Positions 47,252 through 55,861 of a stretch of 64,000 nucleotides of DNA are shown piece after piece. Numbering within the stretch: position 1 is the stretch's first letter; the number at the start of each line of letters is the position of its first letter. The notes below the pieces were generated by a model, which had not been told where the DNA came from, ran no database searches, and was given only the letters and a program-made list of their open reading frames with translations. Source of the DNA: Nocardia wallacei (lineage in GTDB: Bacteria > Actinomycetota > Actinomycetes > Mycobacteriales > Mycobacteriaceae); the NCBI RefSeq assembly GCF_014466955.1, contig NZ_AP023396.1, positions 5,518,001 to 5,582,000 of the forward strand, read 5' to 3'. The position numbers were made by a program, and so were the translations under genes.

Positions 47252-48210
47252 TGCGCACGCTGTACCCGTCGCTGCCGCCACACCGCGAGGGCCTGCTCGA
47301 TGTGGGCGACGGACAGCAGCTGTACTGGGAGGAGAGCGGCAACCCCGACGGCAAGCCGGTGGTGTTCCTGCACGGCGGTCCCGGCGGCGGTACCGCGCCG
47401 TTCCACCGCCAGTTCTTCGACCCGCGCGCGTACCGGATCGTGCTGTTCGACCAGCGTGGTTGCGGCCGGTCGGTGCCGCACGTCGCCGACGGCGCGAGCC
47501 TGGAGACCAACACCACCTGGCATCTGGTCGCCGACATCGAGAAGTTGCGCACGCATCTGGGCATCGAACGCTGGCAGGTGTTCGGCGGCTCGTGGGGTTC
47601 GACGCTGGCGCTGGCCTACGCGCAGACCCACCCCGATCGTGTCACCGAGCTGGTGCTGCGCGGCATTTTCCTGTTGCGGCGCAAGGAGATCGACTGGTAC
47701 TACAACGGCGCCGCCGGTTACGTCTATCCTGACGAGTGGGAGAAGTTCCTGGCCGCGGTGCCGGAATCCGAACGCCGGGGAGATCTCGTGAGTGCCTACC
47801 ATCGCCTGCTGCACTCCCCCGATCCCGACGTGTACGTCCCGGCCGCCGTCGCCTGGTCGAGCTGGGAGGGGGCGACGAGTTCGCTGCGGCCGCAACCGGA
47901 TCGGGTCGCCGAGACCGCCGAGCACCGGTTCGCGCTGGCGTTCGCGCGCATCGAGAATCACTACTTCATGCACGGGGGCTTCCTCGACGAGGGGCAGCTG
48001 CTGCGCGACATCGACCGCATCGCCCACATTCCCGGCGTGATCGTGCAGGGCCGCCACGACATCGTGTGCCCTGCGGTGAGTGCGTGGGATCTGCATCGCG
48101 TGTGGCCGAACTCGACCCTGCACCTCGTCGCCGACGCCGGTCACGCCGCCAGTGAGCCGGGCATCACGCACCACCTGGTGGAAGCCACCGACAAGTTCCG
48201 GAGTACCTGA
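47251..48210 (+). CDS. pip: Proline iminopeptidase (S33)
   Basis: A 319-residue cytosolic alpha/beta hydrolase that removes N-terminal proline from peptides. The family start LYPSLPPHREGLLDVGDGQQLYWEESGNPDGKPVVFLHGGPGGG (oxyanion HGGPGGG), DQRGCGRS and the nucleophile motif VFGGSWGSTLALAYAQTHPDRV are clear. The helical cap contains RRKEIDWYYNGAAGYVYPDEWEKFL, typical of bacterial Pip, and the C-terminus supplies the acid (QGRHDIVCP) and His (DAGHAASEPG). The length is normal. Its ATG overlaps the lipoprotein stop and its own stop overlaps the CHAD start, both as TGATG, so the three genes are translationally coupled. Confidence 0.94.
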   Translation: MRTLYPSLPPHREGLLDVGDGQQLYWEESGNPDGKPVVFLHGGPGGGTAPFHRQFFDPRAYRIVLFDQRGCGRSVPHVADGASLETNTTWHLVADIEKLRTHLGIERWQVFGGSWGSTLALAYAQTHPDRVTELVLRGIFLLRRKEIDWYYNGAAGYVYPDEWEKFLAAVPESERRGDLVSAYHRLLHSPDPDVYVPAAVAWSSWEGATSSLRPQPDRVAETAEHRFALAFARIENHYFMHGGFLDEGQLLRDIDRIAHIPGVIVQGRHDIVCPAVSAWDLHRVWPNSTLHLVADAGHAASEPGITHHLVEATDKFRST

Positions 48211-49079
48211 TGCGCACCGCAACCGGCCCCGCTCTCCGCGCCGCTCTCGACGAGGACGTGGACCGGTTGCTGTCGGCCGAACCCGAGGTCCGTGCCGACG
48301 CCCACGACTCGGTGCACCAGATGCGCGTCGCGACCAGGCGGCTGCGCAGTGTGCTGCGATCGTATCGGGATGTCTTCCGCCGCAAGGAGATAGACGAGAT
48401 TCGCGAGGAATTGCGCTGGCTCGCCGGGCTTCTCGGTGTGGCCCGCGACGCCGAGGTGCGTGCCGAACGGTTCGCGGCACTGGCCGCGGAACAGTCCGGT
48501 GAGCAGCGGCGCGTCTGCCGCCGACTGGTGACGGTGGAACGCCACCGGTACGCCGAGGCCCATCGCGAGGTGCTGCGCGCACTCGACGGCGAGCGCTACC
48601 GGCGCTTGCGGAGACGGCTGAAGGCGCTGCGCCGCGACCCCCCGCTGCGCCGCAAACGCGTCCGCGCCGACGCCACCCGGACGTTCTCCGGTGTACTGCG
48701 CGACGACTTCCGGCGGGTGCGCCGTCTGGTGCGCGCAGAGGAGACGGTCGAGCCCGCCGACCGCGTCGAGCATCTGCACGAGATCCGCAAGGCCGCCAAG
48801 CGTTTACGGTATTCCGCGGACGCCGCCGTCCCGGTCCTAAACGGCCCCGCCGAGGAGCTGTCCGCCCGCGCCAAGAAACTCCAGACCGTCCTCGGCGACC
48901 ACCGCGACGCGATCGAGGCCATGACCACCATCCGCGCCCGCGCCGCCGCGGCCTCCACCCGCGGCATCGTCACCGCCGACTACGACCGCCTCTACGACGC
49001 CGAATCCGACGCCGCCCGCAAGGCCCTGGACCAATACCCCGCCGCCACCGAATTCCTCCGCCACAAATACGGCCACTGA
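48210..49079 (+). CDS. CHAD-domain protein (polyphosphate-binding helical protein)
   Basis: A 289-residue helical protein with two CHAD halves. Conserved His residues in VHQMRVATRRLRSVLRSY and HLHEIRKAAKRLRYSADAA, with strings of Arg/Lys, make the basic channel that binds inorganic polyphosphate in this family. Other CHAD blocks are ELRWLAGLLGVARDAEV and KKLQTVLGDHRDAIEAMTTI. The M. tuberculosis neighbour of panB (Rv2226) fuses CYTH and CHAD; here the CYTH domain is missing and only CHAD remains. It is coupled to pip by one-base overlap. Likely cytosolic and polyphosphate-associated. Confidence 0.9.
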   Translation: MRTATGPALRAALDEDVDRLLSAEPEVRADAHDSVHQMRVATRRLRSVLRSYRDVFRRKEIDEIREELRWLAGLLGVARDAEVRAERFAALAAEQSGEQRRVCRRLVTVERHRYAEAHREVLRALDGERYRRLRRRLKALRRDPPLRRKRVRADATRTFSGVLRDDFRRVRRLVRAEETVEPADRVEHLHEIRKAAKRLRYSADAAVPVLNGPAEELSARAKKLQTVLGDHRDAIEAMTTIRARAAAASTRGIVTADYDRLYDAESDAARKALDQYPAATEFLRHKYGH

Positions 49080-49421
49080 CTTCCGGCCCACCGCCCCCAG
49101 CCCACTCCCCGCGGCCACACGCGTCCGCTCCCCGCGGCTGCACGGCACGAGTCGCACGCCCAAGGCTGCACGCGGGGCCTTCTGCCGACGGGGATGCACG
49201 GGTTGCACTCCCTCATGGCTCACGCGGTGCCATTTCACGGCCGCACCAGTCCTCGTGCCAGCGGCTGCACGGGTGCAGTCCACACGGCTGGACGGTGAGT
49301 GGCTCGTGAGGACGGTGGTTCGGGGGCGGGGCGTGTTTCGGTGCTTGCGTGCCGGGTAGCGCCGCGGTGTAGGGGCAAGTGCGTAGTGGGCGGCTTGCCG
49401 GACCATGGAGGGAGCGAGCGG
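49080..49421. other. Intergenic region with imperfect GGCTGCACG repeats
   Basis: 342 bases, no supported gene. GGCTGCACG or near variants recur at about 49137, 49170, 49195 and 49264, with irregular spacing of roughly 25-70 bases, so this may be a worn tandem repeat. GGAGG lies 10 bases before the SDR ATG at 49422. Confidence 0.4.
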
Positions 49422-50261
49422 ATGGGATTCGCCGAGCAGCAGCAGGATGTTCCCGGTGTGCAGTCGGCGATGGAGCCGGTGCCCGACTGCGGTGAACACA
49501 GTTATCGCGGTAGCGGGAAGCTCACCGGCAAGGCGGCGGTCGTCACCGGGGCCGACAGTGGCATCGGGCGTGCGGTGGCCATCGCCTTCGCCCGTGAGGG
49601 CGCGGACGTCCTGATCTCGTACCTGAACGAGCACGAGGACGCCAAGGAGGTCGCCGAGCTGGTGCGGGAGGCGGGGCGCACCGCCGTGCCCGTGGCCGGT
49701 GACGTGTCCGATCCCGCGCACTGCCAGGCGCTGATCGATACCGCGGTCGCGGAGTTCGGCAAGATCGACATCCTGGTCAGCAACGCCGCCTACCAGATGA
49801 CGCACGAGACCATCGAGGAGATCAGCACCGAGGAGTTCGACTACACCTACCGGGTGAACGTCGGCGCCTACTTCGCCCTGGTGAAGGCCGCGCTGCCGCA
49901 CATGCCGCCGGGTGGGGCGATCATCGGCAGCTCCTCGGTCAACTCCGATATGCCCTCGCCGACGCTGGCGCCCTACGCCGCCACCAAGGCGGCGATCGCC
50001 AACCTGTCCGCCAGCCTGGCACAGCTGTTGGGGCCCAAGGGGATCCGGGTCAACAGCGTGGCGCCGGGACCGATCTGGACGCCGCTGATCCCGTCGACCA
50101 TGCCGCCGGAGAAGGTGGCGAAATTCGGCGACGACACTCCACTGGGCCGGGCCGGGCAGCCCGCCGAACTCGCGCCCGCGTACGTGCTGCTCGCGAGCGA
50201 CGAGGGCAGTTACATCTCCGGCGCTCGCCTCGCCGTCACCGGCGGCCGGCCCATTCTGTGA
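49422..50261 (+). CDS. Short-chain dehydrogenase of the general-stress (glucose/ribitol-like) type
   Basis: A 279-residue SDR of the YhdF/YhxC group, common in stress regulons of Gram-positive bacteria. After a 30-residue N-terminal arm (QQDVPGVQSAMEPVPDCGEHSYRGSGKL, typical of this group) it shows VVTGADSGIGRAVAIAFAREGADVLISYLNEHEDA, LVSNAAYQM (variant of NNAG), the active-site Ser in IIGSSSVNSD and YAATKAAIANLS (YxxxK), then RVNSVAPGPIWTPLIPSTM. Substrate probably a sugar or small polyol; unknown. ATG 49422 follows GGAGG at 10 bases. A DUF5709-like acidic gene follows 34 bases later, probably co-transcribed. Confidence 0.92.
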   Translation: MGFAEQQQDVPGVQSAMEPVPDCGEHSYRGSGKLTGKAAVVTGADSGIGRAVAIAFAREGADVLISYLNEHEDAKEVAELVREAGRTAVPVAGDVSDPAHCQALIDTAVAEFGKIDILVSNAAYQMTHETIEEISTEEFDYTYRVNVGAYFALVKAALPHMPPGGAIIGSSSVNSDMPSPTLAPYAATKAAIANLSASLAQLLGPKGIRVNSVAPGPIWTPLIPSTMPPEKVAKFGDDTPLGRAGQPAELAPAYVLLASDEGSYISGARLAVTGGRPIL

Positions 50262-50295
50262 ATCACCCGGCGGACCGAATACGGAGGTGGTAGTC

Positions 50296-50706
50296 ATGAC
50301 CGATCCACAGGACACCTGGGACCCGCCGCAGGACACCGGCGCGCCCGACTCGGTGGAAACCGATCCCGGTGCGCTGAACAGCGCGGAGGATCTCGACGAG
50401 GACCGTCTGCAGTCCGACCCGCTCGAAGCGGGCATGGATCCCCCGGAACGCTGGTCGGAGGCCGACCGTTACGGCACGACGCCGTGGGAGGAAGCCCACG
50501 ACCGGCCGCTGCGCGACCGCCTCGCCGAAGAACAACCCGACACCGAGCCGTCGCCGCCGGAGGAGGACACGCGCCCGGCGGAGGTCGACGCCATCGACAT
50601 CCCCGACGGCGTGCCGGACAGCTACGACGAGGAACTCGGAACCTCCTCCGATGTGGCCGGAGGCTCTGTCGCCCAGGGCATTCGAACTCCCGAACCGCCG
50701 GACTGA
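50296..50706 (+). CDS. Acidic DUF5709-like protein
   Basis: A 136-residue strongly acidic, Pro/Asp/Glu-rich and probably disordered protein. Segments such as SAEDLDEDRLQSDPLEAGMDPPERWSEADRYGTTPWEEAHDRPLRDRLAEEQPD match the actinobacterial DUF5709 family. No catalytic or membrane features. GGAGG is 8 bases before the ATG at 50296, and a long terminator follows the stop. It sits 34 bases after a stress-type SDR, and DUF5709 proteins are often found with stress genes; co-expression is likely. Confidence 0.85.
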   Translation: MTDPQDTWDPPQDTGAPDSVETDPGALNSAEDLDEDRLQSDPLEAGMDPPERWSEADRYGTTPWEEAHDRPLRDRLAEEQPDTEPSPPEEDTRPAEVDAIDIPDGVPDSYDEELGTSSDVAGGSVAQGIRTPEPPD

Positions 50707-50723
50707 ACGCGACTCGTCCGTGA

Positions 50724-50763
50724 TTCGGCCCGCGCGGCGACAGTTGTCGCGGCGCGGGCCGAA
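50724..50763. terminator. Bidirectional terminator between DUF5709 and nuclease genes
   Basis: TTCGGCCCGCGC (50724-50735) pairs with GCGCGGGCCGAA (50752-50763), and GCGACA (50737-50742) with TGTCGC (50745-50750), giving an 18-bp stem with one mismatch and a 2-base loop. It separates two convergent genes and would serve both. Confidence 0.88.
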
Positions 50764-50828
50764 AGCCTCACTGCGGCAGCGACTCTCGGCGTGCGGTTGC
50801 GGCATGTCGGGGACGGCATCATAGCCGC

Positions 50829-51857
50829 TCAGTCGCGGGTGCGTTCCCGTCTGCCGCGCTCCCTTTCCCGTTCCTCCCTGCCACCGCGCGTCCGGCCCGC
50901 TTGTGGCGGTTCACGGTGCGGCGCTTCGTTTCCGGGTGTAGGGCGACTGACATGCACGATGTCCGCTACCTCGCGGACCATCTCCCCGGGCCGTCCGGTC
51001 GCCGCCGCTTCCCGCGCCCGCCGGGCCTGCTCCGCGAGCCGATCGGCCGCCTCCCGCTGCCGCTGCCGCTCCATCTCATCGGCCTCGGCACGTTCCCTCT
51101 GCTTCACCTTCTCGGCCGCATCCGCTTCCTCCCGCGCCCGCACCGAGTTTTCGACATTCGTCTCTCGATCCCGGGAGAACAATGCCCGGTACTTCTCCGC
51201 GAACTCCCGCACCACCCGATCAGCCGCTTCCTTCTGAACCCGCGCACGCTCCTCGCGAGCTTCCCGCTCACGCTCGGCCCTTCCCCGCGCCTCCTTCGCC
51301 TCGGCTTCTCTCCGACGTACGATCTCCCGGATATTCGCAAGTCGTTTACGAGCTCGATCGGCACGATCCAACTCGTAGACCCGGATCAATTCAAGCTGCT
51401 TCGCGGCAATAGATTGACCGAGTTTCATCGCACGTAGGGCATCGTCGCGCGAAATGACTTCGTGCCGAAATCGCCCAGGGAAGTCACGGGCCATGCTCGA
51501 CATCTCTTCCTGAATAGTCCTCGGAACGGCCTCCCCCGACACGGTCTCCCAGCCGCTGTGCGTAAGCTGCCCGATTTCGAGCGCTGATCGCTCTTTCTCC
51601 AGTTGCCTATAGGTCTCGCGTTCGTTGAGCCGTCCCGATTTGCGCTCCATAGAACGCGTTCCCCTGCCGTCCGTCTTCGCATTGTCCAGAACGCGCGAAC
51701 CTTTAGGGGTTTCCATCTTGAATTGCCGGACCCAACCCCGTTCTGCGGTTTCACCGCGTTCGTGCGCCCTGCCCAGCTCGAAGTACAGACCTTTCTCGTA
51801 GTTAGAGAGATTTCGCCGGAACTTGTCGTACTCGTCATCGGGCACGGTTGTATCCAC
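50829..51857 (-). CDS. PD-(D/E)XK-like nuclease domain with long coiled-coil tail
   Basis: 342 residues from GTG 51857 (GTG 51845 possible). Residues 20-145 form a compact domain: GLYFELGRAHERGETAERGWVRQFKMET, then RVLDNAKTDGRGTRSMERKSGRL, which gives Asp58, then Glu71-x-Lys73, the D...ExK spacing of a PD-(D/E)XK nuclease, and TYRQLEKERSALEIGQLTHSGWETV and FPGRFRHEVISRDDALRAMKLGQ. Residues 150-300 are a continuous Arg/Glu/Ala-rich coiled coil; the end is Arg/Glu-rich. No signal peptide. It is the last gene of a four-gene operon and is preceded by a possible immunity gene. The DNA is visibly less GC-rich than its surroundings. Nuclease activity and toxin role are inferred, not shown. Confidence 0.65.
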   Translation of the reverse strand: MDTTVPDDEYDKFRRNLSNYEKGLYFELGRAHERGETAERGWVRQFKMETPKGSRVLDNAKTDGRGTRSMERKSGRLNERETYRQLEKERSALEIGQLTHSGWETVSGEAVPRTIQEEMSSMARDFPGRFRHEVISRDDALRAMKLGQSIAAKQLELIRVYELDRADRARKRLANIREIVRRREAEAKEARGRAEREREAREERARVQKEAADRVVREFAEKYRALFSRDRETNVENSVRAREEADAAEKVKQRERAEADEMERQRQREAADRLAEQARRAREAAATGRPGEMVREVADIVHVSRPTPGNEAPHREPPQAGRTRGGREERERERGRRERTRD

Positions 51858-51887
51858 CCCCCGTCAATACTTCCCGACGAACTCTTC

Positions 51888-52379
51888 CTATCCCTTGCGG
51901 GTTTTCTGTATATCTCGAAGCGCTGCGGTGATAACGTAATCTGCCATCTCGGCATCACGGCGGAACAAATAGTCCGTCATCGACAGGACGCTCATGACTT
52001 CTTCGCCGTCACCGTACTGCACTGCAGGACTGAAGTCGGTATACAAAGGTGCACTGCTCCATTGAGGGCGGTTGGTCCATGCCATTCCGGCCCGGCGTAT
52101 AAAACATTCGCCATAGAACCGGATGAATTGATCCGCAGCGTCCCGGTTTTCGGCGGCGCGCAATCCATGACTGTCACCGAAGTATTCTTTCGATGCTTGA
52201 AGTATCGCCACCGTCAGTGGACTGTTCCACCACGCTTCAGAATAGCCAGCGATTCCGGGAACCGTCTCGGTGAGAAATTTGCGAACCTGCGATTCCATAT
52301 GATCGGACGCAACCCAATCCAAGAACGCTTGTGTCTTGGCATCGAATTCGATGTCGAAACCGAGTTGTTCGTCGCTCAT
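51888..52379 (-). CDS. Unrecognised protein, possible immunity partner of the nuclease-like gene
   Basis: 163 residues from ATG 52379 with AGGGGA upstream. Helical and acidic: MSDEQLGFDIEFDAKTQAFLDWVASDHMESQVRKFLTETVPG, then an aromatic-rich middle (YSEAWWNSPLTVAILQASKEYFGD) and AAENRDAADQFIRFYGECFIRRAGMAWTNRPQWSSAPLYTDFSPAVQYGDGEEVMSVLSM. The last part resembles immunity proteins found next to bacterial nuclease toxins, as I remember them. It lies 30 bases upstream of the PD-(D/E)XK-like gene on the same strand and shares its low GC. A scrap of its first 12 codons is duplicated at 54425. Function unproven. Confidence 0.6.
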   Translation of the reverse strand: MSDEQLGFDIEFDAKTQAFLDWVASDHMESQVRKFLTETVPGIAGYSEAWWNSPLTVAILQASKEYFGDSHGLRAAENRDAADQFIRFYGECFIRRAGMAWTNRPQWSSAPLYTDFSPAVQYGDGEEVMSVLSMTDYLFRRDAEMADYVITAALRDIQKTRKG

Positions 52380-52416
52380 CGTTTCCCCTCGCGTCGGCTG
52401 TACCGGTGTGCGGAGC

Positions 52417-52629
52417 CTATCGGGTCCGGCCCGAATCGGGCCTGATCCGCCCGGCCTCGACCAGCGCCCGGAACGCGGCCCGCTTGCGGGGGCAGTCGCC
52501 CACGCTGCACTCCACATGCATCTGCATGATCGCGTGGGCATGATCGAGTGTCAGCGGTCCGATCGGGGCGTTGTGGGTCCACCAGAGGGCCGACAACTCC
52601 CGACGGGGCGACGCCGGGTCGTCGGTCAC
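52417..52629 (-). CDS. Small conserved operon protein with paired Cys, unknown
   Basis: 70 residues from GTG 52629. It reads VTDDPASPRRELSALWWTHNAPIGPLTLDHAHAIMQMHVECSVGDCPRKRAAFRALVEAGRIRPDSGRTR. The LDHAHAIMQMHVECSVGDCPRK block has two Cys and three His that might bind a metal. I recall close relatives in many Nocardia and Streptomyces genomes next to XRE-TPR regulators. Its start overlaps the stop of the preceding gene by four bases (GTGA), so the pair is translationally coupled. The 3' end of a second, degraded copy lies at 54480-54510. Confidence 0.7.
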   Translation of the reverse strand: MTDDPASPRRELSALWWTHNAPIGPLTLDHAHAIMQMHVECSVGDCPRKRAAFRALVEAGRIRPDSGRTR

Positions 52630-52934
52630 GCGAACACCCCTTCCCGAATCAGCGTCCAGCGAGCGAAACTCAGTCGCGGAGAGACTGTTTCGATTTCCGC
52701 GAGGTACAGAATGCCGTTCACCTCCAGCGGGCTCAGATGCTGCGGGGACGGGGTGATCACCACGTCCACGTCGGCGGCACGTACCTGGTCGGCAAGCGGG
52801 ACGAGCGACGGCTCGGGCCAGACGACCACATAGCCGAGGTGCCGTGCCATACGTTGTACCTGGGCTCGGTCCCACATCGGCGCGTCGGATACTTCCGGAT
52901 CGATCCATCCCAGCGCGGTCGGTCGAAATCTCAT
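52626..52934 (-). CDS. Resolvase-like (degenerate) small protein
   Basis: 102 residues from ATG 52934, with GGGAGG 10 bases upstream. The central part, WDRAQVQRMARHLGYVVVWPEPSLVPLADQVRAADVDVVITPSPQHLSPLEVNGILYLAEIETVSPRLSFARW, has the strand-helix order of a serine-recombinase N-terminal domain (V.aadVDvVit.s..hL), but the catalytic Ser and Arg residues are not there. I therefore read it as a non-catalytic relative. It is the first gene of the minus-strand operon and is divergent from the XRE regulator at 53152. The relation to resolvases is an inference from pattern alone. Confidence 0.6.
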   Translation of the reverse strand: MRFRPTALGWIDPEVSDAPMWDRAQVQRMARHLGYVVVWPEPSLVPLADQVRAADVDVVITPSPQHLSPLEVNGILYLAEIETVSPRLSFARWTLIREGVFA

Positions 52935-53070
52935 ACTCGGCACTCCCTCCCGTTGTCGGTGTCGGAGGCGTCACAGCGGGGGAGCCGGACGGGCGATCTG
53001 CCGGGCTACAACCCCTGTGTGAAGCCGAAACCGACGCTAGAACCGGCGGGAACGACCGAGTGACAGTGCG

Positions 53071-53151
53071 GTGACAGCTGTCCGGGCAGTGGAGTGGTCG
53101 GTACGCTCGTGGTCAGAGCGTGTTTCCTCCCGACGTGCTGGAGTGGTGGCA
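53071..53151 (+). promoter_or_regulatory. Conserved leader of XRE regulator, copy 1
   Basis: From GTGACAGCT (53071) to the start at 53152 the sequence matches 54589-54670 upstream of the paralogue almost base for base, with about five substitutions and one extra base in copy 2. It holds the ribosome site GGAG and probably the promoter or an operator. Conservation over a non-coding 80 bases suggests shared control, perhaps by the XRE proteins themselves. Confidence 0.6.
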
Positions 53152-54318
53152 GTGACGACAACCGGTAAGCGAATAGCCGCCGAACGAAAGCTCGCTGGCC
53201 TGAAACAGATACAGCTGGCGCAGCGGACGAACTACAGCTTGTCCATGGTTCGCGCGGTCGAGCAGGGCCGGGAACCTGCTTCGCCCGCGTTCATCGCCGC
53301 CGCTGCTCGGGTACTGCGGGTAGAGCCCGAGTTGCTGACCGGCGTCCCCTATCGCGACACCATCGAGCAGGACGGGCCGCTCGAGGGTTCTGTCGAGCTT
53401 CGAACCATCCTCGCCGAGGGCAGCTACGTTGAGCCACTGGAGCCTTTGCCGTTGGTGCGGTTACAGGCAGAACTCGACGACATCGACCGGGTGTACTTTG
53501 CCGACAAGGGCAGGGTGGCGCTCGCTCGGCTGCCGGAGGTAATCAGACGGTTGTACGGGGCGTTGCACACCGAAAGCGACCCCGCCCCCGTGTACACCAC
53601 GCTCGCGCAAGCGTTTCTTACCGCTGAGCGATTGTGTCGCCGCTTCGGATTCACCAGCCTCGCTCCCACGGTCATAGACCGGCTGGAGTGGGCGGCAGAA
53701 CGAGCCGACGATCCCCTGTACGTACCGCAATCGCTCATCAAACGCGCACGTGTTCTCATGTATTACGACCGTGCCGACGTAGGGCTGAAGCTGATTGAAC
53801 GCGGACTGAACGCGATCGAGGGCACAGGCGAAGGCGTGGATGCCGTGCGCGGTTCCGCACACCTCACGGGCGCAATCATTGCGGCGCGGGGCTTCCGTCC
53901 CGATACTGCCGAGGAGCACTTGCACGAAGCACGGCGAATCGCCGGACCCATGAAGCACGAAAGCGACGCGTACGGAACGTTGTTCGGCCCCGCGAACGTC
54001 GGGATACATTCGGTCGCCGTAGCGCTCGAAGCCGGAAATCCCGATAAGGCGGCGCGCGAAGGAACACGTCTCGTACTCCCGAAGAAAATCGCCCCGCCCC
54101 GAGCCGGTCACCACTGGCAGGACGTAGCCCGCGCGTGGTTGCTTATCGGACAGCCGGACAAAGCACTTCACTCGCTGAACTTGGCGCGGCGGATCGCTCC
54201 CCAGCAGACGCGGTTGCATCCGTCGGTGCGCGAGACGTTGCACGGGATCGCGTCGGCGCAGCGGCGGCAGTCGGAGACTCTGGTCAGCTTCGCGTCGTGG
54301 GCGGGTGTGGCGCTGTAG
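53152..54318 (+). CDS. XRE-family regulator with TPR-like C-terminus, copy 1
   Basis: 388 residues. The N-terminal XRE helix-turn-helix is at about 4-65 (GKRIAAERKLAGLKQIQLAQRTNYSLSMVRAVEQGREPASPAFIAAAARVL). The rest is an all-helical TPR-like solenoid with repeats around RLCRRFGFTSLAPTVIDRLEWAAERADDPLY, RARVLMYYDRADVGLKLIERGLNAIEG and QDVARAWLLIGQPDKALHSLNLARRIAP. Start GTG 53152 is placed by GGAG 8 bases upstream and by matching the second copy. It is divergent from the four-gene operon and is a natural candidate for its regulator. A closely similar gene follows at 54671; their last 70 or so codons are nearly identical. Confidence 0.88.
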   Translation: MTTTGKRIAAERKLAGLKQIQLAQRTNYSLSMVRAVEQGREPASPAFIAAAARVLRVEPELLTGVPYRDTIEQDGPLEGSVELRTILAEGSYVEPLEPLPLVRLQAELDDIDRVYFADKGRVALARLPEVIRRLYGALHTESDPAPVYTTLAQAFLTAERLCRRFGFTSLAPTVIDRLEWAAERADDPLYVPQSLIKRARVLMYYDRADVGLKLIERGLNAIEGTGEGVDAVRGSAHLTGAIIAARGFRPDTAEEHLHEARRIAGPMKHESDAYGTLFGPANVGIHSVAVALEAGNPDKAAREGTRLVLPKKIAPPRAGHHWQDVARAWLLIGQPDKALHSLNLARRIAPQQTRLHPSVRETLHGIASAQRRQSETLVSFASWAGVAL

Positions 54319-54670
54319 ATCGGAGGCCGGAACGTAGCGCTCGGTCGCAGGCGCGTTCTCGGCCGCATCGCTCCGTTTCCATACCGTGATCGGGAATGTG
54401 CGGCTCGAATATGCGATCCATTGTCATCGAATTCGATGTCGGAACCGAGTCGTTCGTCGCTCATCGTTTCCGCTCATGTCGGCTGTAGCGACCAGCGCCC
54501 GGAACGCTGCCTCCCGTTCGTCGGACTACTACCCTCTGTGATGACGAATCCGGCGCTAGACCCGGCTGGAACCATCGAGGGACAGTACGTGACAGCTATC
54601 CGGGAGAGTGGAGTGGTCGGTACTCTCGTGGTCAGAGCGTGTTTCCTCCCGACGTGCTGGAGTGATGACG
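54319..54670. pseudogene. Remnant of the duplicated operon (immunity-like start and small-gene end)
   Basis: Between the two XRE genes, 54425-54510 matches 52341-52480 in reverse-strand sense: the first codons of the immunity-like gene (MSDERLGSDIEFD...), its ribosome site, then the 3' end of the 70-residue gene, with about 55 bases missing between them. The rest of those genes and the resolvase-like gene are gone. From 54589 the leader of the second XRE gene begins. So this is a decayed copy of the divergent operon, left behind after tandem duplication. Confidence 0.75.
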
Positions 54671-55846
54671 GTGACGACAACCGGTGAGCGGATTGCGGCT
54701 GAGCGTAAGCTCGCCGGCCTGAAACAGATACAGCTCGCGCAGCGGACGAACTACAGCCTGTCCATGATCCGTGCGGTCGAGCAAGGGCGAGAGCCCGCGT
54801 CCGCCGCGTTCATCGCCGCGGCGGCGAAGGCGCTGCACGTCGAGCCCGAGTACCTGACGCAGACGCCTTTCTACGACGTCCTGGAGCAGGACGGCCCACT
54901 CGAGGGCATTGCGGAATTGCGGTCGATTCTCGCGGAAGGCGCTTACGTTCGCCCGGTCGAACCGACTCCCATTGCCGAACTGACCACGGAGATGCAGGGC
55001 GTAGACACGGCTTACCGCAACGACAAGGGCCGCATCGCGCTTCAGCGCATTCCCCCGCTTATCCGGCAGTTGTACGGCGCTCTACATGCCGCACGAACCG
55101 ACTCGGAACGCGGCCGGGTCTACACGCTGCTCTCGGCGGCATACGTCACTACCGAACGGCTGTGCCGCCGGTTCGGATTCACCGCACTGGCACCTGTGGT
55201 TCTGGATCGGCTCGAATGGGCGGCCGAAGGTGCTGATGATCCGCTCTACGTCGCTCAGGCAAAGGTGAAGCGGGCGCGAATCTTGATGTACCACAACGCG
55301 AACGACGTTGGTCTGCGGCTAGTGGAGGACGGGCTGGACCTGATCGAGGGCAATACCGAGCGAGCGAACGCTGTACGTGGCTACGCGCATCTGTGCGGCG
55401 CGATAGTCGCCGCTCGTGGCTTCAACGCCGACACGGCCGTAGCTCACATCGAGAGCGCGCGTCGGCTGGCGTGTGGCTTCGACCGCGAATCCGATTTGTA
55501 CGGAACGCTCTTCGGGCCTGCGAACGTCGGTATTCACTCGGTAGCAGTTGAACTCGAATCCGGAAATCCCGACAAGGCCGCCCGTACGGGGGCCGCGCTC
55601 ACCTTGCCCGACGAGATCGCCCCGCCCCGAGCCGGTCACCACTGGCAGGACGTAGCCCGGGCATGGTTGCTTGTCGGGCAGCCGGACAAAGCACTTCACT
55701 CGCTGAATTTGGCGCGGCGGATCGCTCCCCAGCAGACGCGGTTGCATCCGTCGGTGCGCGAGACGTTGCACGGGATCGCGTCGGCGCAGCGGCGGCAGTC
55801 GGAGACTCTGGTCAGCTTCGCGTCGTGGGCGGGTGTGGCGCTGTAG
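54671..55846 (+). CDS. XRE-family regulator with TPR-like C-terminus, copy 2
   Basis: 391 residues, a paralogue of the gene at 53152. The helix-turn-helix domain (GERIAAERKLAGLKQIQLAQRTNYSLSMIRAVEQGREPASAAFIAAAAKAL) is almost unchanged, so both probably read the same DNA site. The middle (about 75-315) has diverged, while the last 70 or so codons, from IAPPRAGHHWQDVARAWLL to FASWAGVAL, are nearly identical even at third positions. That pattern points to gene conversion or strong selection at the 3' end. I place the start at GTG 54671, equivalent to copy 1; ATG 54665 is possible. It now lacks an intact divergent operon. Confidence 0.88.
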   Translation: MTTTGERIAAERKLAGLKQIQLAQRTNYSLSMIRAVEQGREPASAAFIAAAAKALHVEPEYLTQTPFYDVLEQDGPLEGIAELRSILAEGAYVRPVEPTPIAELTTEMQGVDTAYRNDKGRIALQRIPPLIRQLYGALHAARTDSERGRVYTLLSAAYVTTERLCRRFGFTALAPVVLDRLEWAAEGADDPLYVAQAKVKRARILMYHNANDVGLRLVEDGLDLIEGNTERANAVRGYAHLCGAIVAARGFNADTAVAHIESARRLACGFDRESDLYGTLFGPANVGIHSVAVELESGNPDKAARTGAALTLPDEIAPPRAGHHWQDVARAWLLVGQPDKALHSLNLARRIAPQQTRLHPSVRETLHGIASAQRRQSETLVSFASWAGVAL

Positions 55847-55861
55847 GAACCAGCGAGGCTG

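Follow-up and report, generated by a model that had tools for sequence, protein, structure and literature searches.

The closest described counterparts of the genes considered here are nuclease toxins that come with dedicated immunity proteins. The Tox-REase-1 to -10 families have a restriction-endonuclease fold with motifs such as E, D, ExK and Q and are accompanied by adjacent immunity genes, polyimmunity loci and polyimmunity proteins (PMC3482391); the same source describes the immunity family Imm69 as alpha+beta with a conserved W and an hGE motif. In Staphylococcus aureus, the nuclease toxin of EsaD/EsaG is accompanied by immunity paralogues arranged in strings (PMC9484751). Type II toxin-antitoxin modules consist of two genes, antidote first, separated by a short gap. 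Here, we describe a pair of genes, imm and nuc, located in a 64,000-nucleotide stretch of the Nocardia wallacei genome (contig NZ_AP023396.1, positions 5,518,001 to 5,582,000; hereafter the window). The interpretation that suits the pair best is a nuclease of the polymorphic-toxin type accompanied by its immunity protein, and we consider it likely that imm-nuc encodes such a toxin and immunity protein and has a common ancestry with a type VII (WXG100-type) polymorphic toxin.

The pair has the predicted fold, the motifs and the polyimmunity of the Tox-REase families, whereas the order of the domains and of the imm and nuc genes is reversed relative to what PMC3482391 describes; Nocardia is not named in the part of that text examined. 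EsaD/EsaG, to which we liken the pair by description, differs in being exported by the type VII secretion system (PMC9484751). The gene order is that of a type II toxin-antitoxin operon, with the antitoxin first; however, no clear DNA-binding domain is apparent in Imm, a large XRE-TPR regulator is encoded separately, and the imm genes show polyimmunity. What is new is a combination: a nuclease at the N-terminus, an immunity gene in first position, a charged helix (joined in part of the family to a conserved Arg-rich tail) in place of an export domain and, usually, a divergent XRE-TPR regulator. No description of such a family was found in the parts of the open-licence PMC literature consulted. 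The assignment supplies a testable function for 'hypothetical proteins' and adds an immunity family, and it poses the question of how a toxin works that is without the type VII export domain of its relative and has its polarity reversed.

The predicted nuclease and its partner

The nuc gene (50829..51845, minus strand) encodes an N-terminal PD-(D/E)XK domain, a long charged helix and an Arg-rich C-terminal tail. A previous reading of the window from its letters alone (the sequence-only reading) had given it 342 amino acids from a GTG at 51857; the family alignment (MPDEYD...) favours the GTG at 51845, i.e. 338 amino acids. Residue numbers given here are those of the 342-residue frame, in which the nuclease domain covers about residues 10-140. 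The AlphaFold2 (AF2) model of residues ~6-195 contains a confident restriction-endonuclease core (predicted local distance difference test, pLDDT, 92.6), composed in model numbering of a helix (14-28), three strands (37-45, 48-58 and 61-68), a second helix (74-89) and a further strand (93-101), which is the alpha-beta-beta-beta-alpha-beta core of the PD-(D/E)XK superfamily. Asp58, Glu71 and Lys73, already singled out in the sequence-only reading for their spacing, are invariant in 51 of 51 aligned sequences; in the model they lie on adjacent strands, Asp58 on one and Glu71 and Lys73 on the next, in the Asp then (D/E)xK arrangement of the superfamily. We predict that Nuc is a PD-(D/E)XK nuclease, and most likely it would cut DNA with a metal-dependent active site formed by these three residues, assisted by Gln85.

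The coiled coil of 150 residues proposed earlier is supported, as a long helix following the nuclease domain, only over the stretch covered by the model, which ends at about residue 194. The C-terminal tail (50832..51056, minus strand; VADxLxVxRPTPG...REPP...TRGGR...ER in family alignment A7) was searched for on other proteins in 40 genomes, no more than 141 candidates being scored in each. All 10 matches were at nuc loci, one of them (in G010) being a tail at a contig start. The tail was found in six of the 40 genomes and nuc is present in 14, so that the tail is conserved in part of the family only. The helix and the tail would probably have a role in assembly, in nucleic-acid binding or in delivery. 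Inspection of Nuc by eye revealed no export signal, as had been stated before.

Imm (163 amino acids; 52379-51888, minus strand) is modelled by AF2 as a mainly helical protein with a small beta sheet (pLDDT 90.7), and 36 matches to it were found in the database. A GE and a W are conserved, and any likeness to Imm69 would be at the level of its published description (PMC3482391). Pfam helix-turn-helix (HTH) models do not match the window Imm, and a weak TetR_N likeness occurs in three of 36 family members (best E 0.002). Imm, encoded ahead of nuc in the presumed operon, would bind Nuc and block it. A resemblance to DUF3806 (Pfam PF12713) had been suspected; no match was obtained in the N. wallacei genome at E up to 1, nor in any of the 30 Imm relatives scanned. 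Foldseek by itself returned no significant match, and any fold similarity to BT_1490 (PDB 3hlz), a DUF3805/DUF3806 protein, is uncertain.

Library searches returned little for either protein. Up to an E-value of 1, the window products of imm, nuc and the two small upstream genes, res and his, are without a match in Pfam, NCBIfam or PADLOC, and no Pfam restriction-endonuclease or toxin model matches the window Nuc or 37 family members. Scans of the proteins and of their alignments against Pfam, NCBIfam, PADLOC and PHROGs yielded usable matches for the regulators only, and a PDB sequence search with profiles of nuc, imm, the tail and the WXG toxin gave no significant match.

The nuc/imm family occurs in 65 of 108 sampled Nocardia genomes, and a single genome can have as many as 15 matched stretches. 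Among the matches listed, imm lies directly upstream of nuc for 142 of 145 nuc genes in 59 Nocardia genomes, a count that includes interrupted copies and leaves weaker matches uncounted. The imm-nuc pair is the unit, and imm is the near-fixed partner of nuc. Imm is also found alone, in tandem or as two to three domains per open reading frame (ORF), as expected of polymorphic-toxin immunity genes. The dependence is one-sided: nuc is nearly always accompanied by imm, and imm also occurs without nuc. In the N. wallacei genome itself (7.9 Mb), two further nuc loci are present, at 4.46 Mb with an open nuc and at 1.13 Mb. The latter (1,134,072-1,135,600) has the order res-his-imm-nuc, with nuc interrupted by a stop and divided between two frames, and imm open. 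Among named proteins, the closest belong to Nocardia wallacei and Nocardia sp. N2S4-5.

A few loci depart from the common arrangement. One apparently intact nuc is without imm (L165), downstream of ORFs that by eye we take to be VOC-like and IS110-transposase-like, and another locus (L174) has two pairs in tandem, imm-nuc-imm-nuc. A locus found with the imm profile (L123) contains a nuclease-like protein, and its imm match appears spurious. In G277, a minus-strand frame (L161, contig C2, 2518-9315) of 2265 amino acids, perhaps a large toxin, has a nuc-like match near its C-terminus; at E 2.3e-4, this match is too weak to use.

Relationship to a WXG100-type toxin

The link to polymorphic toxins comes from a locus (L093) in another genus of the same order (genome G033). 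A WXG100 gene (PF06013, 1.1e-15) is followed there by a gene for a 503-residue protein with a WXG100_2 domain (PF25547, 8.6e-7, above its cut-off) and then by an imm homologue (E 1.6e-10), which overlaps or abuts the preceding gene according to the start codon chosen. Over its final ~110 residues, the 503-residue protein aligns with the nuc domain and keeps D, ExK and Q. As a single pair, this protein and nuc give a BLASTP E of 0.003; by hhalign, the nuc family matches the protein alone with E 1.1e-7, and the nuc family (A5) matches the WXG100-toxin family (A6) with a probability of 97.7% (E 1.3e-12), as compared with 0.6% or less for four mismatched control pairs. The toxin tip is thus homologous. 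Since two independent matches stand side by side, chance is unlikely, and the relatives of nuc and imm make up a toxin-immunity pair of the ordinary type VII kind. By sequence comparison, Nuc and Imm appear to share ancestry with this pair. The toxin family of L093, WXG100_2-type proteins with a C-terminal restriction-endonuclease-like domain (P0157-P0163, with D, ExK and Q), includes six further proteins, which are sequences without gene context. Secretion of the WXG100-type toxin by the type VII route we infer from its WXG100 domains.

The two arrangements are nevertheless opposed. At L093 a WXG100-like domain precedes a C-terminal nuclease, and the gene for this protein lies between a WXG100 gene and imm, in that order. 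In the Nocardia cassette the nuclease is N-terminal and without a WXG100 domain, and imm is the first gene of the pair, so that we do not file the cassette as a classical polymorphic toxin, even if it probably functions in a similar way: the usual N-terminal trafficking domain with a C-terminal toxin is not found, and the adjacent immunity gene, usually downstream in such toxins, is upstream. All eight genomes tested have WXG100 genes; at the 17 listed nuc loci, however, no such gene was located on the same contig at a distance of 20 kb or less, a result limited by short contigs. The WXG100 link comes from a single locus, and an order-wide nuc search, in which few candidates were scored per genome, missed L093.

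Mode of use and alternative explanations

We infer the toxicity of Nuc, its inhibition by Imm, its DNA target, its regulation and its mode of use. Use between cells appears somewhat more likely than use inside the cell: polyimmunity and the WXG100 relative favour the former, and the gene order and the absent export domain favour the latter, be it toxin-antitoxin action or phage defence. One form of between-cell use would be a reversed polymorphic toxin, with the toxin tip N-terminal and the charged helix, joined in part of the family to the RPTPG...TRGGR tail, replacing WXG100. This is a speculative proposal and probably incorrect as it stands. It would call for a novel export or packaging route, such as prophage particles or an unrecognised C-terminal signal, and cells would gather imm genes, alone and fused, against their neighbours' versions.

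The alternative that survives best is an intracellular toxin-antitoxin or abortive-infection module, for which we would reserve a tentative place. Nuc would stay inside the cell with Imm as a labile antitoxin, and either phage or stress sensed via the XRE-TPR regulator or a loss of Imm would free Nuc to cut DNA. As this is the inside-cell mode of the toxin-immunity reading, the confidence placed in the two overlaps. An antidote gene in first position suits such a module, as does the failure to find an export domain or a nearby WXG100 gene. Moreover, on a predicted viral contig of IMG/VR (L196:2039-3523), a distance of about 1.3 kb separates imm-nuc from an endolysin gene, and minor tail and tape-measure genes are near; since the pair is close to the contig end, it may lie just inside or just outside a prophage. 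The regulator divergent from the window cassette, RegA, matches a phage family, phrog_5823, over its full length (1.2e-61). However, phage records hold no match to nuc or imm, and the window genes res, his, imm and nuc match no system protein of known anti-phage systems (PADLOC-DB 2.0.0, E up to 1). In addition, imm genes that stand alone or comprise several domains are more readily explained by foreign toxins entering the cell than by a purely internal pair, and the relative that stands out most clearly is a WXG100-type toxin. Other searches for mobile carriers gave one imm locus in viral contigs (none with nuc as a single query), a 2.66-Mb Nocardia farcinica record as the only match among plasmid records, and one N. 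wallacei locus in a genome-contig scan for which nuc was the single query and whose reach is limited to close relatives.

It is improbable that Nuc is a domesticated nuclease of DNA repair, recombination or development, with Imm as a structural partner rather than an antidote. Structural neighbours of the Nuc fold do include SfsA and EndoMS, and many cassette regulators resemble NsdA, a family known from Streptomyces development. A divergent XRE-TPR regulator, NsdA-like or of the window type, lies within 5 kb upstream in 18 of 26 cassettes (the 26 of 29 examined that had at least 4 kb upstream; L050, a nuc tail at a contig start, was dropped). NsdA-type TPR regulators occur at L031:1386-2660 and at 14 other loci; one was scanned and matched NF053720 (7.5e-98), and the others were placed by clustering with it. 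Against a housekeeping role stand the patchy presence and the high, variable copy number of the family, the polyimmunity, the locus of the same genome in which nuc is interrupted and imm is open, and the position of the cassette on DNA inserted between conserved neighbours. This 6.8-kb insertion (49080..55861), in which the cassette is accompanied by an SDR-like and a hypothetical gene, lies between a CHAD-like gene (48210-49079) and an RNB-like gene (from 55862), the three names being our assumed readings. The flanking genes are within 1.5 kb of each other in seven of nine Nocardia relatives with the RNB gene, and close together in none of four loci of other genera.

Accessory genes and layout of the locus

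On the minus strand, imm and nuc are preceded by res (52934-52626; a resolvase-like small protein of 102 amino acids) and his (52629-52417; a His/Cys protein of 70 amino acids). The coordinates bear out the order res, his, imm, nuc, with nuc ending at 50829, and the close spacing reported in the sequence-only reading: res and his overlap by 4 nucleotides, and a 37-nucleotide gap separates his from imm. The reported drop in GC is likewise seen, with 54-59% at about 51,250-52,500 as compared with 69-72% to the left, 63-65% across the regulators and 73-76% in the gene that follows these on the right. That the four genes form one dedicated conflict system, as spacing, common low GC and a single strand might suggest, is very hard to sustain, since nuc loci of the same genome hold two of 11 res and two of the 22 listed his matches (25 in all), 20 other res/his stretches there contain neither imm nor nuc, neither res nor his was seen at its locus L022, and both occur in only five of 26 cassettes (each in nine). 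The earlier proposal is thus supported for a polymorphic-toxin-type cassette of a nuclease and an immunity-like partner on inserted DNA and is not supported for the four genes as a unit; the set of four represents one of the combinations in which a modular operon occurs. We suppose that res and his belong to a shared pool of exchangeable small accessory genes, probably regulatory. Fused ORFs with res-like and his-like domains (L024:1647-2282 and L028:6914-7780) suggest that the two proteins act together.

Divergent from the operon are two plus-strand genes for XRE HTH and TPR-like regulators, regA (53146..54318, start approximate) and regB (54665..55846), both recognized with Pfam and PHROGs. 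RegA matches Pfam HTH_31 (1.5e-9), and TPR_12 below its cut-off; PADLOC HTH models match the regulators weakly. The divergent protein probably controls the promoter between itself and the operon. The RegA and RegB proteins share about 74% identity, in line with the duplication in place noticed earlier, and self-comparison shows that the copied segment was larger than the regulator, because the copy also includes parts of imm (its start) and of his (its end). This minus-strand remnant (54421..54511) consists of 54421-54487, which corresponds to 52336-52402 (the first part and start region of imm; 91% over 67 bp), and of 54489-54511, which corresponds to 52458-52480 (the end of his; 96% over 23 bp). 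Probably an imm5'-his-res-regulator block was copied, and res and most of his were then lost.

Beyond the end of nuc, self-comparison revealed a 40-bp palindrome (50724..50763; 90%), a possible bidirectional terminator. It was not picked up by the terminator scan, and promoter and terminator scans of the window gave matches no more than expected by chance. On its far side and still inside the insertion, the convergent hypothetical gene (50287-50706) encodes an acidic protein of 139 amino acids.
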